DNA from: a virus
Direction: 5' to 3' (one strand)
Length of the DNA stretch: 21,912 nucleotides
IMG/VR virus record: IMGVR_UViG_3300025698_000657
Coordinates: 1-21,912 of that record
This document shows positions 2,776-21,912 of this stretch, in pieces. The position numbers were made by a program, and so were the translations under genes. Each line of letters begins with the position of its first letter. Position 1 is the first letter of the stretch. A model generated the notes under the pieces. The model was not told where the DNA came from, did no database searches, and saw nothing but the letters and a program-made list of their open reading frames with translations.

Positions 2776-5126
2776 GACGGCAGCCTTATCTTTCCGCCCC
2801 GCTTACGCTGGGCCGTGATTGTTTCGGCTGCCCACTTACGCACGCCGTCGCCCTCAATCTTGAGAGCAAAGGCTTGCCCCCGCGCCGGGGGCCTTGCTGT
2901 CAGGTTGATCCCCTCATGCCAGGTTCCGGTCCCGGTTACGTCTCCCGTACGAACGCCGTGGAACGTCCGGGCTGGAACGAGACTCCACGTCACATCGCCG
3001 CTTTGGTCTGCCAAGATAGCATTGATTTCGGTTATCGTTCCCTCGTATCCGTCCGGAGCCAGCGGGATCGGGCCGTAAAGAACGTAAGAGGCAACGCTTG
3101 ACCCGTCGTCGTTCTCGGCGTCCTCGTGGTAGTACCGGAGGTATCCGTCCCGGCAACCGAGGATAACATCTGATCCGCTTACGGACGCCGATTGATAGGT
3201 GCAAATGGCACACGGGTCATGGTCGGCCTGCAACGTAACAGGCCAGAAGGTTTTCGACGTCCAGTCAAACCACCAATGCACAGTGCCGGCGCTCTCGTCA
3301 TCCTGAGTCACATAGATATGAACGCCACCATGGATAGCATCGAACTGCATAGTCACAATCTTATCTCTCAGCCCGGACCCTCGGAGATCACCGGGCAAGA
3401 CTTCCACCGATAACGCTTCAGGAAAAGCGGCTCCGGCCGCTGGAACCCCATAGAGTCCGTCAACAGCCAGAAACAAGAGAATTCCTTCCGGCGTCACGCA
3501 CCAAGCGTCACGGCCAACTATGCCAACGGACCCGCTCAGAACGCTCAACGATCCGCCGAACGCGGGATCTCCGCGCATCCGCCACATGGAATTTTCGCAG
3601 CCGAAGATCAAGTAATCGTCCGTATGTGGTATCATGGCCACGATCGGCTCCCCCGGAACGCCTGCATCGCTCGATGTACCGGCCACGGCTCGCTGTGCGT
3701 CCGTCTCCGCGTAATCCCAGTCGGCCGGATCGTTCTGCCGGCTCATGTACCACACGTGCGCAGCCAAGTCCGCTCCGCCCAGCACGAGGCGTCCACGATA
3801 ACGACAACAAACGGGATTCCCAACGGGAACTATGCCAGCTGTCGCAGTCAGGATGCTCAAGGTCCCGCCCAATGGATCGTAGGATTTCAAGCCACGCTCG
3901 ATACTGTATCCGCATGTGCCTGCCCCGCCAGCCGTTGATGTAAGGGTCAGCTTGGTCTCGGCAACAGACGCTATTTCGTATGTGCCATCCACTACATCGC
4001 CGGTCGCATCCGATATCGCAACGACATCCGAGGCCGCATCAATGCCGTAGACGGTCCAATCGGACACGCCAGCAACCGTCAATTCCAAGCCGTCTGCGCT
4101 TATGACACCATCCACTATGCCTGACACCCGTTTATCCCCATAGTCCGCTATGTAGAGTTTCTGCCCTGCCTGGGCAGCGCTCAGAGGAACATCGTCCCTT
4201 ACCGTTAAATCAGATGTCACCTCGTCTAGTTTTCCGCTGAACGCTTCCCGGTAGAGTGAGCCCCCGGCGGACCCCACCAACAGCGCTCGACTCCCCTCGA
4301 TAGAGCCCGCAGAATACTGCACGCGAAAAATGTTTGCCAAGCAGACGCCGTTATCCTGCGTACAGTTGAGTCCAAATCCCATGCGCGTACCCGTATGTGC
4401 GTCGACAGTCTGACTCACGAGCTCGGCCCCACGCCAGTAGCACGTCACATCATCCCCGCTGACTACTACCGTAAACCAACCCGCAATAGCTGACCCATCG
4501 TCTCCGGGCGTGAACGCGTACGCCGTAGAGACCTCCCCGTCATAAGACGTCAGAGTCCCGGTAAACGTCCCGTCGCCGTCTTCCATGACCAGCTCTGCCA
4601 CGATACCATCGGTCAAAATAGCCGGGGTAGTGTCGTGCAAGCGAGCGTAGAGCCGATACTTGCCATGAAAGGCGGCCTTCCAGGGAGTAATGAACATCTC
4701 CACAGCGTATGCCTCGCCGACATCGATCGGCAGCACTCCCCGAACCACGGCAGCCTCTTCCACATCATCGCTCACAGCCGAAGACAAAGAAGCGAGCAAC
4801 CCCGGCTCCGCTTCTGCCCAGCTGGCCAGTGACCATACGCTGCCAAGCTCCGGCTCGTCAAACTCGTCTATCCAAGACGCATACCCGTCATCAAGGACTA
4901 GGTTCATCTTGGCCAGCATACGCACAGGACTGCCGGAGCCCATGATATCATCATGAGACTTCAGCAGGCCGGGGCGGCTGCCGCCACGTTCGCGCCTCTC
5001 GATAGAATCGAAAGGACGCACGTTCATGCAGTCCATGGAGGCGTAAGGGGGCTGCTGCCGGTACGAAGCCCGACGATTCAGCCCCCCCAAGGGAAACCCC
5101 AATCTGATTGGTTCCGCCTTACCCAT
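2772..5126 (-). CDS. Tail nozzle / packaged-DNA stabilization-type protein with a lectin-like insertion
   Basis: A 784-residue protein. The N-terminus GGLNRRASYRQQPPYAS, then MNVRPF and the ERRERGGSRPG segment (about residues 14-52), is the opening typical of podovirus stabilization/nozzle proteins (P22 gp10-like). Residues about 440-600 show the matching body: RGRLVLGG, WYMSRQNDPADWD, PIVAMIPHTDDYLIFGCENSMWRM, GIVGRDAW and ILLFLAVDGLYG, a beta-propeller-like series. Between these, residues about 83-275 (starting WIDEFDEPELGSVW and ending with FRVQYSAG) look like a concanavalin/LamG-type insertion. The start ATG at 5126 has a strong site (AGGAGAG). It lies downstream of the head-tail adaptor gene and would bind it in the virion. 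Family assignment is by recognisable pattern; the insertion is inference from the DEF-D-x-x-x-L-G-S-x-W start. Confidence 0.8.
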   Translation of the reverse strand: MGKAEPIRLGFPLGGLNRRASYRQQPPYASMDCMNVRPFDSIERRERGGSRPGLLKSHDDIMGSGSPVRMLAKMNLVLDDGYASWIDEFDEPELGSVWSLASWAEAEPGLLASLSSAVSDDVEEAAVVRGVLPIDVGEAYAVEMFITPWKAAFHGKYRLYARLHDTTPAILTDGIVAELVMEDGDGTFTGTLTSYDGEVSTAYAFTPGDDGSAIAGWFTVVVSGDDVTCYWRGAELVSQTVDAHTGTRMGFGLNCTQDNGVCLANIFRVQYSAGSIEGSRALLVGSAGGSLYREAFSGKLDEVTSDLTVRDDVPLSAAQAGQKLYIADYGDKRVSGIVDGVISADGLELTVAGVSDWTVYGIDAASDVVAISDATGDVVDGTYEIASVAETKLTLTSTAGGAGTCGYSIERGLKSYDPLGGTLSILTATAGIVPVGNPVCCRYRGRLVLGGADLAAHVWYMSRQNDPADWDYAETDAQRAVAGTSSDAGVPGEPIVAMIPHTDDYLIFGCENSMWRMRGDPAFGGSLSVLSGSVGIVGRDAWCVTPEGILLFLAVDGLYGVPAAGAAFPEALSVEVLPGDLRGSGLRDKIVTMQFDAIHGGVHIYVTQDDESAGTVHWWFDWTSKTFWPVTLQADHDPCAICTYQSASVSGSDVILGCRDGYLRYYHEDAENDDGSSVASYVLYGPIPLAPDGYEGTITEINAILADQSGDVTWSLVPARTFHGVRTGDVTGTGTWHEGINLTARPPARGQAFALKIEGDGVRKWAAETITAQRKRGGKIRLPS

Positions 5127-17122: not shown

Positions 17123-17557
17123 CTACTTGGATAGGCCCCATCTGCGGAGCGTGGTGATAGCACGAGCCCAAAACGGTACGATGCCCGCGGAGTCGCAGCG
17201 TCCGAACCGCCAGACCATGATGAAATACAAGCTGGCCAGTCTCAGGCGCGGCCAGATTTTTCGACGTTCCCAGAACCCAGCGACTTGGTCAGCGCCGAGG
17301 ATCAGGATGATCATGTTCACGAGGAATACGGTGTCCGCTATCATCTTGTCCCGGCGGGTCGTCGCAAAATGGTACATCCAATCGTGGATGTCAGCGGCCG
17401 GCGAGATGCTCAGGCCGAGGAACGCGTCCGGCACGTCAACACCGTCAGTGCCCGCGCCGTCGCACGTGTCAGACAAAGCCTGAAGGCTGGCAGTCAGAAA
17501 GGAGTCAGGAGCCAGTAGGCCGCGATTCGATAGGTGAAGGTTGCGTACGTCTAACAT
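17123..17557 (-). CDS. Phospholipase-A2-like HD-motif phage protein
   Basis: A 144-residue protein if started at ATG 17557, 9 bases after AGGAGG; the in-frame ATG at 17566 abuts that site, so it is the weaker choice. Both starts overlap the TerL stop. It carries a pattern seen in a group of phage proteins: TCDGAGTDG, then VPDAFLGLSISPAADIHDWMY, then DKMIADTVFLVNM, then a basic segment ending RLASLYFIMVWRFG. The HDWMY motif (H about 58, D about 59) corresponds to the catalytic His-Asp of phospholipase-A2-like folds such as the parvovirus VP1 domain. If active it would hydrolyse membrane lipid or a virion-linked ester. The usual Cys before the HD is Ala-Asp-Ile here, so activity is uncertain. 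Confidence 0.72.
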   Translation of the reverse strand: MLDVRNLHLSNRGLLAPDSFLTASLQALSDTCDGAGTDGVDVPDAFLGLSISPAADIHDWMYHFATTRRDKMIADTVFLVNMIILILGADQVAGFWERRKIWPRLRLASLYFIMVWRFGRCDSAGIVPFWARAITTLRRWGLSK

Positions 17558-19488
17558 TCTCCCCATCCTCCTCCAAAACCGTCTATATCGCCTTTGGCCG
17601 CCTTGGCCGCCTGCTGTTCGCGCCGCCAGGCGAGGGAGCCCATGGGTGCCTTGGGCTTCTCAGTCTTCGCCTTCTGCCGTGTCTCGCTCAGCCCGACGTA
17701 TGCAAGGGCGTCGGCTATCACTTCGTCACCGTGCGCGGTCCTCGCGCCGGACGGGTCCTGGGCGTTGGCCTGGGCGGAGTGGGCTATCGTGCCGTCCGAT
17801 TTCCGGATGAACTGTAGACACTCGGACATGCCTTGGTCGGATCTGTTGATGAACGAGTGGTCCGCAAGGGCGGCCCGGTAATCTTCAAGCAACGCTTCTC
17901 GCGCCGTCGGCTGAAGGTAGTACCCGGGCTCTTTGCTGGCAGCGCGGGATGCTAACTTCTCGTTCCGGCGAAAGTAGATGTTGCCGTAACCGTGCTGGAT
18001 CACGCGTTGCGTGTAGATTTTGCCGGTCGGCCCGGTAGCGTCCCAAATCATGTAAGCGTCGTTGAAGAAATGACCCAGCGCAAGACTCAGTCCGGCGAAA
18101 GGGTTGGGTCGAAGGTGAGGAGTCCGCAGACACCCCACCTTCTCCCCAGTCCTGCGGTCCACCACACAGGAAACTGAATTGCTGGCCCCTGTACCAGCAG
18201 ATATGTCTGACCCCAGGACGTACGGTACATCTTTTGGCACGTGGCCCTTGGCGTCAAGCTGTAGCCACAATAAGAGATTGCCGTTCGGACTCTCTACAAA
18301 CCGTTTCGGTTGTAGCGTCTCAGGGTTGAATTCTAGGGTTCCTAGAACCAGCGGGGCGCGACAGTATTTCTTGCGTAGTATGTCGATGAAATCAGGGTCG
18401 AAGAATTGGTAGTCACTGCCCAGGAAGTCGATGTCCAATTCCTGAGCAACCTCCATCGGGTTCACGCAACGAGCGCATTCGCCGTCGTACCACGGACTCC
18501 GGAGTTTGCCGTCGAGGATGAACGGGTAGTCATCAGGGAACATGACGCTACGCCGTTGGGTCTCGCCTTTCCGCCGCACCTCTACTATGCCGCGGAACCC
18601 GTCGAGCAGCTCTACCTTGCCGTCGCGAGTCTTGGTGCTGTACGAGCCGAGACTCTTGATCGGATGATCGGACCAGTGTAACCGGATGATCCGGGCGTTC
18701 GTGCTGTGAACTACCTCGTAGAACCCGTTGTTGCTGCCTTGAGGTGTCGAGTTGAACCCGCGGCAGTTCGTGGTATCACGAGTAGCGCGGAGGACCCGGA
18801 ACCCGTCGTTTAAGTCGAACGCTGCGTGTTCGTCAATGAACATCGCCGTGCGCCGGTCTCCCCTCCCTGCGTCTCCCGTCGTGCTTTCGCCGTCGATGAT
18901 GGAGCCGTTGTCTACGTTGCCAAGGTGAAGGAGTTTCCGGCTCGGGTCGCGATAGCCCAACCAGCGGTCAGTAGGCAGCAGCCAGCGCGGTTGGTGTTCG
19001 TGTAAAAAGTCGATCTTCCAAAAGAGGCTCTTCGGATTCCCGCGTTTGTCGACGTAGTCCTCGTTTCGGCTCACAAGCAGAAAGCTCAGGTTGGGGCGGA
19101 AGTGCCAGAACCATTCGAATGCTGTCAGACCCATCCAGCTCGCGCCCATGTCGCGGCTCTTCGGCATCGCAAAGTCTTCGCCTATCTCTACGCAGTCAGC
19201 TATGCCAAGCATCGCCGCGTCTTGGAACTCTGTGTACGTGATAAACGGAATTACGCTGGCTTTGCTCCGGGGGTCGTACGTCCAACAAAACGTGTTCACA
19301 TAGAACAGCAAGTCTTCCGCGCACATCTGGCGGATCGCAAGAGCCGTCTGCTTGTCGCGGCTGGCCATGTTGATGACGTCGCGGCGGAAAGCCAGGTTGG
19401 CCTTTAGCTCTTTCGGGACGTGGCAGTAGTGGGGGCAAGAGATCGTACCCAGGGTTAAAGCGGCGGCTGTGGCTAGTTCGGCCATCAT
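17551..19488 (-). CDS. terL: Terminase large subunit (packaging ATPase-nuclease)
   Basis: A 645-residue protein. The ATPase half shows a viral Walker A variant, PKSRDMGAS (about 109-117), Walker B AMFIDEH with catalytic Glu at about 220, and the coupling motif NSTPQG (about 246-251). The nuclease half has three acidic clusters of the RNase H-like fold: SD in VLGSDISAGTGASNS (D about 428), D in IWDATGPTG (about 483) and D in HGDEVIADALAY (about 588). It pumps DNA through the portal and cuts it. It starts at tandem ATGs (19488/19485) that overlap the TerS stop (ATGA), after an AGGAGAGG site. Length and motif order are standard for phage TerL. Confidence 0.95.
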   Translation of the reverse strand: MMAELATAAALTLGTISCPHYCHVPKELKANLAFRRDVINMASRDKQTALAIRQMCAEDLLFYVNTFCWTYDPRSKASVIPFITYTEFQDAAMLGIADCVEIGEDFAMPKSRDMGASWMGLTAFEWFWHFRPNLSFLLVSRNEDYVDKRGNPKSLFWKIDFLHEHQPRWLLPTDRWLGYRDPSRKLLHLGNVDNGSIIDGESTTGDAGRGDRRTAMFIDEHAAFDLNDGFRVLRATRDTTNCRGFNSTPQGSNNGFYEVVHSTNARIIRLHWSDHPIKSLGSYSTKTRDGKVELLDGFRGIVEVRRKGETQRRSVMFPDDYPFILDGKLRSPWYDGECARCVNPMEVAQELDIDFLGSDYQFFDPDFIDILRKKYCRAPLVLGTLEFNPETLQPKRFVESPNGNLLLWLQLDAKGHVPKDVPYVLGSDISAGTGASNSVSCVVDRRTGEKVGCLRTPHLRPNPFAGLSLALGHFFNDAYMIWDATGPTGKIYTQRVIQHGYGNIYFRRNEKLASRAASKEPGYYLQPTAREALLEDYRAALADHSFINRSDQGMSECLQFIRKSDGTIAHSAQANAQDPSGARTAHGDEVIADALAYVGLSETRQKAKTEKPKAPMGSLAWRREQQAAKAAKGDIDGFGGGWGEC

Positions 19489-19955
19489 TGTCCGTCCTCT
19501 CCTGGCTCAAAGTCCGCAAAGGCGTTTGAGGGCGGAACCGGGATCTCGCCAATGGGTACAGTTGCCGGCACTGCCGGGCCTACTATCCGGGCGTGGATCG
19601 CTTGGATCTGTTCGATGACGTCGAGAACGTGAGCGCCGTCTACCTTGTCGTCGTCAGGGTCAGCCTCTTCCTGGGCACGGCTCGGCATCAGGCGGGACCA
19701 CAGCTTTTCGATGAAGAAGAAGCGGAACGCCGGGTTGAGACGGCATTCCCTGAGAAGGGTCCACGCAAACGGGTCCGGACAGTCCTTGGCGGAGCAGCTC
19801 GGATTGTCGATGTTGCGGGCTACCCAGCGGATAACTTCGGGTTCGGGAGCAGTGCGGCCGGCGAGGATTCGGGGAGCCAGGGTGAGCGCCGCTATGGTGG
19901 CTTTCTTTGACGGCGCTCGTTTGGCGCGTTTTTGCGTACCGGCAGAGGTGGTCAT
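19485..19955 (-). CDS. Terminase small subunit candidate
   Basis: A 156-residue protein from ATG 19955. The longer reading from TTG 19991 lacks a ribosome site and adds a hydrophobic stub, so I reject it. The N-terminus is basic (KRAKRAPSKKATI) and suited to DNA binding. The middle has CSAKDCPDPFAWTLLREC, and the C-terminus is acidic then proline-rich (PVPATVPIGEIPVPPSNAF). It directly precedes and overlaps terL, the usual place for the DNA-recognition subunit. I do not see a clear helix-turn-helix match, so this assignment rests on position and charge pattern. The gene lacks a Shine-Dalgarno and has a promoter whose start point falls at the ATG. Confidence 0.65.
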   Translation of the reverse strand: MTTSAGTQKRAKRAPSKKATIAALTLAPRILAGRTAPEPEVIRWVARNIDNPSCSAKDCPDPFAWTLLRECRLNPAFRFFFIEKLWSRLMPSRAQEEADPDDDKVDGAHVLDVIEQIQAIHARIVGPAVPATVPIGEIPVPPSNAFADFEPGEDGQ

Positions 19956-20353
19956 AAAGGCAATATACAGCGGGAGGCACAGGGAAGGCAAGCGGGAGCA
20001 GTAGCAATATGTGCTGAAAGTGGTGTCCGGGGGGGAGGGGGTAACTTAACATCCCGCCGGCTGAGAGGCGGGGGGGCTTGGTAAGATTCTCGCAACATGC
20101 CCGGAGTCCCGTTTCCTTTTCGACCCCAATAGCCACCAAAATCAGCCCCAACCCCCATTACTGATCCGCACCCATCAATAACGCATGACATGATATCACG
20201 CTCAAACTGGATTCGATCTGAGCCTGAGACGATGCTGGCCAGGTTGCGTCGTGTTGCGATTTACCTCCGCCCACCCTGAGCCCTCCCCCAGCCTCAAGAG
20301 TAGCGTTTCTGCTACCATTTCCCGGCTACAATCGTGCAAAATGACCGAAAAAG
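19956..20353. other. Non-coding divergent spacer, left part
   Basis: About 400 bases without a convincing gene. Open frames here have no ribosome site and odd composition. The stretch holds G-rich tracts at 20029-20041 and 20070-20076, a small hairpin CCCGCC/GGCGGG (20053-20058 with 20067-20072), a GCATGACA inverted copy of the array unit at 20183-20190, and a TGATATCA palindrome next to it. Its place beside the terminase small subunit gene is where a packaging initiation site (pac or cos) often lies; no cos end can be identified from sequence alone. Confidence 0.55.
19962..19991 (-). promoter_or_regulatory. Candidate late leftward promoter at terminase start
   Basis: On the minus strand, TTGCCT (19991-19986) and TATATT (19967-19962) are separated by 18 bases, and TG directly precedes the -10. 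The predicted start point is about 19955, the A of the terminase ATG. The match to sigma70 is 4/6 for the -35 and 5/6 for the -10. No Shine-Dalgarno follows, which fits a leaderless message. Confidence 0.4.
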
Positions 20354-20369
20354 TGTCATGCAGTATACT
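20341..20369 (+). promoter_or_regulatory. Second candidate rightward promoter before the repeat array
   Basis: ATGACC (20341-20346) and TATACT (20364-20369) are spaced by 17 bases, matching sigma70 at 4/6 and 5/6. A GTCATGC unit (20355-20361) lies between the two boxes, so the repeat-binding factor could occlude it. The transcript would run through the array toward the ATPase genes. Confidence 0.35.
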
Positions 20370-20440
20370 TACTTACTTAATTTACTTACACTGTCATGCA
20401 TTGTCATGCAGTACCCATTTCCCTCCTTTTTCGACATGCA
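20354..20440 (+). repeat. Outlying decamer copies with AT-rich stretch
   Basis: Copies of TGTCATGCA occur at 20354, 20392 and 20402, and a degenerate CGACATGCA at 20432. The last three are in 10-base register with each other. Between 20363 and 20391 lies an AT-rich stretch with repeated ACTT/TTAC, which could be a DNA unwinding element if the array is a replication origin. Confidence 0.6.
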
Positions 20441-20455
20441 AGACACTAGGGTATG

Positions 20456-20474
20456 TGCATGACAATGTTCGACA
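20456..20474 (-). repeat. Inverted copies of two array unit types
   Basis: TGCATGACA (20456-20464) is the reverse complement of the array unit TGTCATGCA. ATGTTCGACA (20465-20474) is the reverse complement of TGTCGAACAT, matching the variant unit at 20518 in all but the first base. The pair is adjacent, in the opposite orientation to the main array. Confidence 0.6.
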
Positions 20475-20497
20475 CCCCCCCACCGTTTAGCCTCAAT

Positions 20498-20661
20498 CGT
20501 CATGCACTGTCATGCGCCGTCGAACATCGTCACGCACCGTCTCGCACTGTCACGCACCGTCATGCGTTGTCGAACGTGTCATGCTATCACGTGCTATCAC
20601 GTCCGTCATGCATCGTCATGCACGTCACCAAAAAACTACACTGTCATGCACCGTCACCCGC
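20498..20661 (+). repeat. Phased decamer array, consensus YGTCATGCAC (operator array or iterons)
   Basis: About 16 imperfect copies follow each other head to tail. Unit starts 20498, 20508, 20518, 20528, 20538, 20548, 20558 and 20568 are exactly 10 bases apart; later ones (20577, 20585, 20595, 20604, 20614, 20642, 20652) drift by a base or skip. Most units are GTCATGC or GTCACGC; two are GTCGAAC. The 10-base step puts each site on nearly the same face of the helix. The array ends one base before the -35 box of the rightward promoter. There are no unique spacers, so it is not CRISPR. Likely roles are cooperative binding of a repressor or activator, or an iteron origin. Confidence 0.85.
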
Positions 20662-20690
20662 TTGCATTATTCATCCCGAGCATGTATACT
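20662..20690 (+). promoter_or_regulatory. Rightward sigma70-like promoter
   Basis: TTGCAT (20662-20667) and TATACT (20685-20690) are separated by 17 bases, with TG just before the -10. The -35 matches 4/6 and the -10 5/6. Predicted start is about 20697, giving a leader of about 57 bases to the ATG at 20754. The decamer array abuts the -35, so a bound protein would be placed to activate or block it. Confidence 0.65.
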
Positions 20691-20753: not shown

Positions 20754-20975
20754 ATGATCACACGCGCTCACACATGTCTCAGGCAAGCACAAGAACGATT
20801 AAACATTCAGTACGTCCGGATGGGGTTCACTCGGTTCTATCTTGGAATCGGCAGCTACTACGGTTTCACGCACAAACAGGCATGGAAAGCCTACAGCCGA
20901 CTGGTTCGCGTTGAGGGTACAGTTCTGCACGGCACGGCCGTTGTTTGGTTCGTGCGCCAAGCATGGGAAGGATAA
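20754..20975 (+). CDS. 73-residue basic protein of unknown function
   Basis: The first gene of the rightward module. ATG 20754 is preceded by GAGAGG, 9 bases upstream. The protein is basic and aromatic-rich (LNIQYVRMGFTRFYLGIGSYYGFTHKQAWKAYSRL), with a SYYGFTHKQAWKAYSRL segment that could be a DNA-contacting helix, though no standard helix-turn-helix is evident. No membrane or signal segment is clear. It stands right after the array and promoter and 6 bases before the ATPase gene, so it may regulate the array or serve early infection; this is inference. I do not recognise the family. Confidence 0.65.
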   Translation: MITRAHTCLRQAQERLNIQYVRMGFTRFYLGIGSYYGFTHKQAWKAYSRLVRVEGTVLHGTAVVWFVRQAWEG

Positions 20976-20981
20976 ATCATC

Positions 20982-21912
20982 ATGCCAACAGCCTATGAGA
21001 ACATGTCAACGCCTGAGCTCCGGAAAGTCTGCCTGAACCGCGGGGCGTTCCGAGGCCGCACCTGGCGGGGCATCCGGAGAACGGATCTTGAAGATTTTCT
21101 TGAGGGACGCGCTACTGAACATGATATCATAGCCAAGGCCGAGGGTACACCATTTGTATCCAAAGAAGCACAACAAGAGCCTCCTGCCGGTGACGATCTT
21201 GTCGACGTGATAGCAAGAGCTCTTGCGGGCAAGGTCAAGGCAGGGCTGGACGAGACGGCCGTACTCGAGCTGCTCAGAAACGAGCTGGACGCGCGTGGCG
21301 TTGATGAGCCCGGGATCAAACAGCTGATAGGCGAGGCTGTAGAGCAGTTCGTTCAGCCTATCACGCACGAGATTCACATGCCTGAAGTGCAAGGGAAAAT
21401 CAGCCTCGCGGGCCAGGCCACGCACTACCAGCTGACACAAGTGCTGGCCTGGTTGCGTGCGGACGTACCTATCTGGTTATGGGGCGCGCCTGGGGCCGGC
21501 AAGACACACATGGGCCGACAGCTGGCTGATTGTCTCTCGGTCAAGTGTTACACGATGTCGATTGACGAGACCACGACAGCAAACAAGCTGCTCGGGTTCC
21601 AGAATCTTGTCAGTGGTGCGTTTGTTGAGGGTTGGCTGTACGAACCGTACAAGGATGGCGGTCTCGTTGTCATTGACGAAATCGACACTGGAAACCCGGG
21701 CATCATAGCCGGACTGAACGCACTGCTCGCCAACGATTACTACATGTTCCCCAACGGCGAAACCCTCAAGCGTCACGACCAATTCAGCGTGATAGCATGC
21801 GCGAACACCAACGGGACGGGCGCGATTGCGGGCTACACAGCCCGACAGCGCCTGGACGCCGCCACCCTGAACCGATTCGCCGTTGTCGAATGTCTCTATG
21901 ATGAGGGGCTCG
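20982..21912 (+). CDS. MoxR/CobS-type AAA+ ATPase, 3' end cut by window edge
   Basis: The frame is open from ATG 20982 to the right edge (310 codons visible), with an AAGGA site 9 bases before the start. The N-terminal 40 residues (MSTPELRKVCLNRGAFRG, then RRTDLEDFLEGR) look like a SAP/LEM-type helix-loop-helix. A linker with helical repeats follows. The AAA+ core then shows Walker A GAPGAGKTH (about residues 168-176), Walker B LVVIDEID (about 231-238), sensor 1 IACANTNGTG, and the ATLNRFAV segment with the likely arginine finger. The order matches phage CobS-like ATPases (AAA_5), which often pair with a von Willebrand-type (CobT-like) partner. Likely a chaperone-type remodelling ATPase, not cobalt insertion. 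Confidence 0.88.
   Translation, partial: MPTAYENMSTPELRKVCLNRGAFRGRTWRGIRRTDLEDFLEGRATEHDIIAKAEGTPFVSKEAQQEPPAGDDLVDVIARALAGKVKAGLDETAVLELLRNELDARGVDEPGIKQLIGEAVEQFVQPITHEIHMPEVQGKISLAGQATHYQLTQVLAWLRADVPIWLWGAPGAGKTHMGRQLADCLSVKCYTMSIDETTTANKLLGFQNLVSGAFVEGWLYEPYKDGGLVVIDEIDTGNPGIIAGLNALLANDYYMFPNGETLKRHDQFSVIACANTNGTGAIAGYTARQRLDAATLNRFAVVECLYDEGL

Follow-up and report, generated by a model that had tools for sequence, protein, structure and literature searches.

A one-turn-spaced array of short repeats beside the terminase genes is a candidate replication origin in a phage family that probably infects Verrucomicrobiota

The window analyzed here, a whole IMG/VR record that consists of a linear fragment of 21,912 bp, carries between two divergent operons an array of short repeats, which we consider to be a short-iteron replication origin (an iteron field) that would work like the origins of PICI and SaPI elements, with a probability of roughly 0.6 as judged from sequence comparisons. 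The original prediction had proposed that the array represents either a new type of operator or a replication origin. The second of these readings is favored and has gained support because the array is found in the same place in related phages, because it adjoins the least stable DNA of the record and because the same unit and period are found beside replication genes elsewhere, while the operator reading has lost ground.

Structure of the array and its flanking genes

The late genes to the left of the array are transcribed leftwards and include genes encoding an SU10-type adaptor, the large terminase subunit TerL (17551–19488, minus strand; phrog_2/phrog_5989) and a TerS-like protein that is conserved in relatives (19488–19958, minus strand). 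To the right, a 73-residue ORF without an assigned family (20754–20975, plus strand) is followed by the first large gene of the rightward operon, which encodes a CobS-like AAA_5 ATPase (phrog_249; 20982–21912, plus strand) and is cut by the end of the record. The N-terminus of this ATPase (encoded at 20982–21120 in the window and also seen in L008 and L012) contains a helix-loop-helix segment that, judged by eye, resembles a SAP/HeH domain and, because of this resemblance, the CobS-like ATPase may bind DNA.

A total of 17 forward units resembling YGTCATGCAN were found within 20354–20661, including 14 units in the main array (20498–20661, plus strand) and three units, TGTCATGCA[GT], further upstream (20354–20411, plus strand; starts at 20354, 20392 and 20402). 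Alignment of these units yielded the pattern [CT]GTC[A>G][T/C]GC[A]N, with GTC invariant in all 17 forward units and GTCATGC present in 10 of them. Eight units of the main array, with their Y base at 20498, 20508, 20518, 20528, 20538, 20548, 20558 and 20568, form an unbroken 10-bp register on the plus strand, and the remaining units of the main array start at 20577, 20604, 20614, 20623, 20642 and 20652 on the same strand. While 10-bp steps also separate the forward units at 20392/20402, 20604/20614 and 20642/20652, the phase is imperfect over the whole array, since unit spacing is 9–10 bp with gaps. Three reverse-strand units are located at 20429–20473 (GTCGAAA at 20429–20435, GTCATGC at 20457–20463 and GTCGAAC at 20467–20473), the last two of which are 10 bp apart and represent one of each unit type.

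The array was also supported statistically. With up to one mismatch allowed, 13 GTCATGC sites were found in 330 bp, whereas 5000 shuffles gave 1.3 such sites on average and never more than 6; self-identity at lag 10 was 0.55, while shuffled sequence did not exceed 0.45 at any lag, and TRF called a period of 10 at 20498–20562. No other repeat cluster of the record is as dense as the array (12 copies versus 7 in the next cluster), and the total count of the unit across the window was not above chance. The approximately 16 head-to-tail decamers of the original prediction, the eight copies at exact 10-base steps, the two unit types (GTCATGC/GTCACGC and GTCGAAC) and the additional copies upstream were therefore all borne out, and the genome-wide scatter of repeats that had been named as speaking against the prediction was not seen. 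Multiple short direct repeats at one locus, as in iteron origins, are thus present in the window. The one-turn period had been described as uncommon, which holds insofar as it is rarer than iteron periods of 20–22 bp, although short iterons have been described (PMC7581432, PMC6092414). The window showed no match to Rfam.

Relatives and probable host

DNA similarity searches of the window against annotated phages yielded no match, and TerL showed only relatives with approximately 22–28% identity among annotated phages. The TerL search did identify 37 related viral contigs (53 with a profile) as well as matches in two bacterial assemblies, a MAG and Cerasicoccus frondis, both of which belong to the Verrucomicrobiota. 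The relative in C. frondis NBRC 105381 is an apparently complete prophage of approximately 43.5 kb (G043 contig 5, approximately 122.4–165.9 kb; L335, L286 and L336; referred to here as the L286 prophage), which encodes an integrase, an XRE repressor, a ResIII helicase, a PrimPol, RusA, a serine recombinase and late genes. Because both bacterial TerL matches are to Verrucomicrobiota and one of them is a prophage, the host of the window virus probably belongs to this clade, and at least some members of the phage family are temperate. A small serine recombinase was found to be common in the early module (G003, G004, G005, G007, G008, G010, G013, G015 and L286). Ribozymes scoring above the Rfam gathering scores (type II hammerhead and twister-P5) were observed in L008 (389–457, minus strand) and L021 (1774–1842, minus strand).

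The place of the array is conserved while its unit is replaced

Contigs that extend across the interval from TerS to the rightward operon were found to carry clusters of short repeats in this spacer. Units of the TGTC[AG]Y type were found in L008, L010, L021, L024 and L029 and partly in L009, while other units were found in L012 (TGTATAAC), L022 (TTGAAACG), L016 (TTTATAAC) and the L286 prophage (GTTAGTA); the clusters in L033 (CTAGCAA) and L035 (GGCGCAC) are less clear-cut, and an L090 cluster was set aside as it is sparse and perhaps located within a coding sequence. The grouping of units as different as those of L286, L016, L022 and L012 by place and period represents a judgement. By strength, the array ranks first among the repeat clusters of the contig in the window, G007, G003, G002 and G008, is tied for this rank in G001 and is second in G005; the array of the L286 prophage is short, did not rank at the top by k-mers and was recognized by eye and by a 7-mer count. 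Across relatives, neighboring units on the same strand are 10 bp apart in 39 of 85 close spacings and 9–11 bp apart in 63 of 85, and runs flip strand.

The same place and build, with TerS and TerL shared, were found regardless of whether CobS or DUF3560 is encoded on the other side; CobS was rejected as a constant partner of the array, since DUF3560 is found instead in some relatives. In more distant CobS phages that have another terminase (G016–G019), TGTCA clusters are likewise located in the interval from CobS to the terminase region. The unit types are intermingled on the TerL tree, with L022 (TTGAAAC) pairing with L024 (TGTC) and L012 (TGTATAAC) pairing with L009. A lack of conservation in relatives with shared flanking genes had been named as refuting the prediction; such conservation was found for the position and build of the array and not for the unit itself, which changes even between sister lineages.

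The relatives also bear on whether the array could consist of half-sites for a small serine recombinase encoded by the phage, which would serve dimer resolution or inversion. Sites of the Tn3/gamma-delta type also begin with TGTC, and a Resolvase-domain gene was found in 9 of the 26 records searched, including most of the longer relatives, as well as in the L286 prophage. However, resolvase sites consist of inverted half-sites of approximately 12 bp; direct 10-bp runs dominate in the array, half-sites of this length would overlap, and inverted half-sites around a crossover were not found. In addition, the same recombinase is encoded by phages with non-TGTC units (G003, G005 and G008), and the TGTCAYGC-array phages G039–G042 carry no Resolvase-domain gene. 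Because of the direct 10-bp runs and the presence of the same recombinase with other units, recombination sites are a highly improbable explanation of the array.

Promoters at the right edge of the array

A phage regulator that coats the DNA and controls the divergent CobS/DUF3560 and late operons as an early/late switch could also account for the array, which would then represent a multi-operator array. The array does lie between divergent operons and touches the rightward promoter region, and its right edge carries sigma-70-like promoters that are strong in L029 and L013 and weaker in L012, G001 and L024. In the window itself, the right edge of the array is followed by a weak promoter-like site, TTGCAT-17-TATACT (20662–20690, plus strand). 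The −35 box originally placed at the end of the array, TTGCAT (20662–20667), turned out to be weak, with 3 of 6 consensus matches, and was not listed by a consensus scan; TATACT, 17 bp downstream, shows 5 of 6 consensus matches. Likewise, nothing backs the 73-residue protein as the binder of the array, as it showed no family match and no homologue among the relatives, and its structure model is helical with low confidence.

Several findings argue against operators. The L286 prophage is complete, and its XRE repressor and early replication operon are located approximately 17 kb away from the array, with no such array in their own spacer; location beside the repressor gene and early promoters, as is expected for immunity operators, was thus not found in this prophage. 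Moreover, the rightward gene differs among relatives, TGTCAYGC arrays in unrelated phages follow replication genes and are in some cases located within the coding sequence of these genes, and an operator does not require the coincidence of the array with the least stable DNA. As the array separates divergent operons and is flanked by promoters in some relatives, an operator array is possible, even if unlikely.

Low-stability DNA beside the array

The 60-bp segment with the lowest stability in the whole record (20337–20396), which includes a (CTTA)n stretch at 20366–20389, is located between the upstream units of the array and represents a candidate unwinding element. Such a record-wide minimum was found in or beside the array not only in the window, but also in G001, G002, L024, G008 and G019 and in the complete L286 prophage, and the array of G003 coincides with the second least stable DNA; in G007, G016, G017 and G018 the least stable DNA is located away from the array. 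AT-rich adjoining DNA, as is typical for iteron origins, was therefore found in the window and in the majority of the relatives, although not in every one. Since spacers tend to be AT-rich, this low stability supports an unwinding element without proving it. Units in the window are found on both sides of 20366–20391, with flipped blocks further on, and this layout varies among relatives.

A conserved element nearer to TerS

Proximity of the array to TerS could indicate a role in packaging, with TerS rings binding the array as a pac site and the phase reflecting DNA wrapped around a ring of HTH domains, or with the array located in a terminal repeat. Direct repeats close to terS are present in the pac site of SPP1 (PMC4737164), and the distant phage phiM5 has a 357-bp terminal repeat, with a few TGACA units, in its analogous CobS-TerL spacer. 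On the other hand, the DNA-binding domains of the SF6 TerS bind pac repeats with little sequence specificity (PMC4737164). In the phages studied here, the unit cannot be predicted from TerS similarity; among phages with known arrays, those whose TerS is closest to the window protein (42% identity for L012 and 39% for L016) carry other units, while TerS identity is 34% for both L008 and L021, which carry TGTC units. TGTCAYGC arrays of unrelated phages furthermore adjoin replication genes rather than terminase genes.

A separate, sequence-conserved element nearer to TerS, which recurs upstream of other terminases, also speaks against the array as the packaging site. This non-coding element (20037–20119, between the array and TerS) consists of GGGGGTAACTTAAC, a GC-rich hairpin, GGGGGGCTTGGTAA and GGAGTCCCGTTTCCTTT. 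It is nearer to TerS than the array in most relatives examined and, with GGAGTCCCGTTTCCTTT at its end, was seen in L286, L022, L029, L306, L308, L304, L300, L024 and L361. Its 17-base core was found in 50 viral stretches, at least 12 of which are located upstream of phrog_38 terminase genes; these copies are on the other strand relative to the terminase, and some adjoin HNH genes. In the L008 contig, three copies of the 17-mer are present within 420 bp. The element, which is distinct from the array, is a candidate packaging site or late leader and is a better candidate for a packaging site than the array; it is also a candidate for a cos/pac signal common to unrelated phages. Literature searches on the array unit and on GGAGTCCCGTTTCC found nothing relevant, and no paper on the TerS-side element was found. 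Overall, packaging is an improbable function of the array.

TGTCAYGC arrays in unrelated phages

When viral contigs were scanned for triplets of GTCAYGC units in 10-bp steps, 102 stretches were identified, as compared to 2 for a scrambled control; as this control was a single pattern with one extra fixed base, the excess is approximately 10-fold once this base is allowed for. ORFs beside the 23 densest arrays included those for AAA_25 (RepA-like) helicases (7), DnaB (2) and PrimPol (2), as well as a replisome organizer, DnaA_N, DnaB_2 and a DnaC-type loader, while ORFs of these contigs at a distance of over 3.5 kb from the array match mostly portal, capsid, terminase and integrase proteins. 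In L158, L211, L230, L204 and L206 the arrays are located inside O-like organizer genes. The unrelated phage L181 shows, at 4760–5090, paired DnaA boxes and AT-rich DNA that are flanked by two TTGTCACGC blocks, adjoining an AAA_25 helicase gene, a layout that looks like a textbook and seemingly complete origin. Scattered units without a dense array were found in phiM5.

The TGTC-type unit is common to phages with unrelated replication proteins, and a single initiator family does not explain this. One could speculate that one-turn-spaced TGTCAYGC serves as an iteron in a wide range of phages, together with unrelated replication machineries (RepA-like helicases, PrimPol fusions, O-like organizers and DnaB operons), as well as in the phage family of the window, but such a generalization is rather unlikely to hold.

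Proposed initiation and comparison with known origins

If the array is an iteron origin, a phage-encoded initiator would bind one unit of approximately 7 bp per helix turn and, as a consequence of this spacing, the bound molecules would line up as neighbors along a single face of the helix, in blocks that run in opposite directions. The filled array would strain and open the adjacent least stable DNA (20337–20396), where helicase and primase would be loaded. The initiator would most likely be a helicase, or a primase-helicase, that carries a small DNA-binding domain of the winged-helix type. Binding of the array by a phage protein, the identity of this protein and a replication start at this site are what we infer from the comparisons described above.

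No replication genes were found in the window. Like the window, its closest TGTC-unit relatives are incomplete records. Relatives of the window encode a PrimPol-DUF3987 protein and a helicase, with PrimPol located several kb from the array in G003, G008, G015 and L286. The C-terminal domain of PrimPol-DUF3987 is modeled as a winged helix (pLDDT approximately 88 over residues 61–110), and its best structural neighbors are winged helices, with weak E values of at least 0.05; the protein represents a candidate initiator. Co-variation of the PrimPol C-terminus with the unit was compared in five cases only. Good DnaA boxes are absent in the phage family of the window and were present only in the unrelated L181. 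While the cumulative GC-skew minimum coincides with the array in G007 and G002, GC skew, which had been suggested for mapping the origin, was discarded as a marker because it follows transcription in G003 and L286 and therefore provides no independent signal.

Among known systems, lambda-type origins, which have four iterons of approximately 18 bp in gene O, share iterons and adjacent AT-rich DNA with the window, and some TGTCAYGC arrays of other phages are also located inside O-like genes; the window array, by comparison, is intergenic and one-turn spaced. The heptads of the omega repressor and the 11-bp repeats of ParR/parC, which are filament-seeding repeat arrays, resemble the window array in having head-to-tail short units, spaced by approximately one helix turn or less, that are able to seed a protein coat, but no partition or omega-type gene was recognized beside the window array in ORF maps.

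In PICI origins, an AT-rich region is surrounded by two sets of iterons (PMC6092414), and PICI/SaPI origins are read by the C-terminal domain of the Rep helicase (PMC6092414, PMC7581432). SaPI Rep and SCCmec Cch2 recognize short iterons, and the helicase Cch2 needs 5-nt iterons, AAGTG (PMC7581432). The window family is similar to PICI/SaPI in that sets of putative short iterons appear to surround an AT-rich region, in a layout that varies among relatives, a primase/helicase is encoded by the element and the unit differs between relatives. By contrast, the window array has many more units, at one-turn spacing, and is located between late genes and an accessory operon; as it is not directly 3' of a rep gene, it is not classified as a member of the PICI/SaPI type. 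The SCCmec Cch2 origin shares very short direct repeats, and Cch2 is a helicase with a C-terminal DNA-binding domain, but this origin has three iterons, compared to approximately 17 in the window, and the Cch2 family was not found in phages of the window family.

Conclusions

The array provides a testable origin for a family of uncultivated phages, and this family is tied to a host clade through a prophage in a named strain. Replacement of the unit between sister lineages, with the place and build of the array retained, represents a natural series for the study of co-change between initiator and iteron. The signature of unit plus period may also be of use in finding the origins of other metagenomic phages. 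If TGTCAYGC at one-turn spacing were a widespread iteron, this would point to one shared binder, perhaps a protein of the host or a small, mobile domain that binds DNA, which would recruit different replisomes to a standard DNA address.
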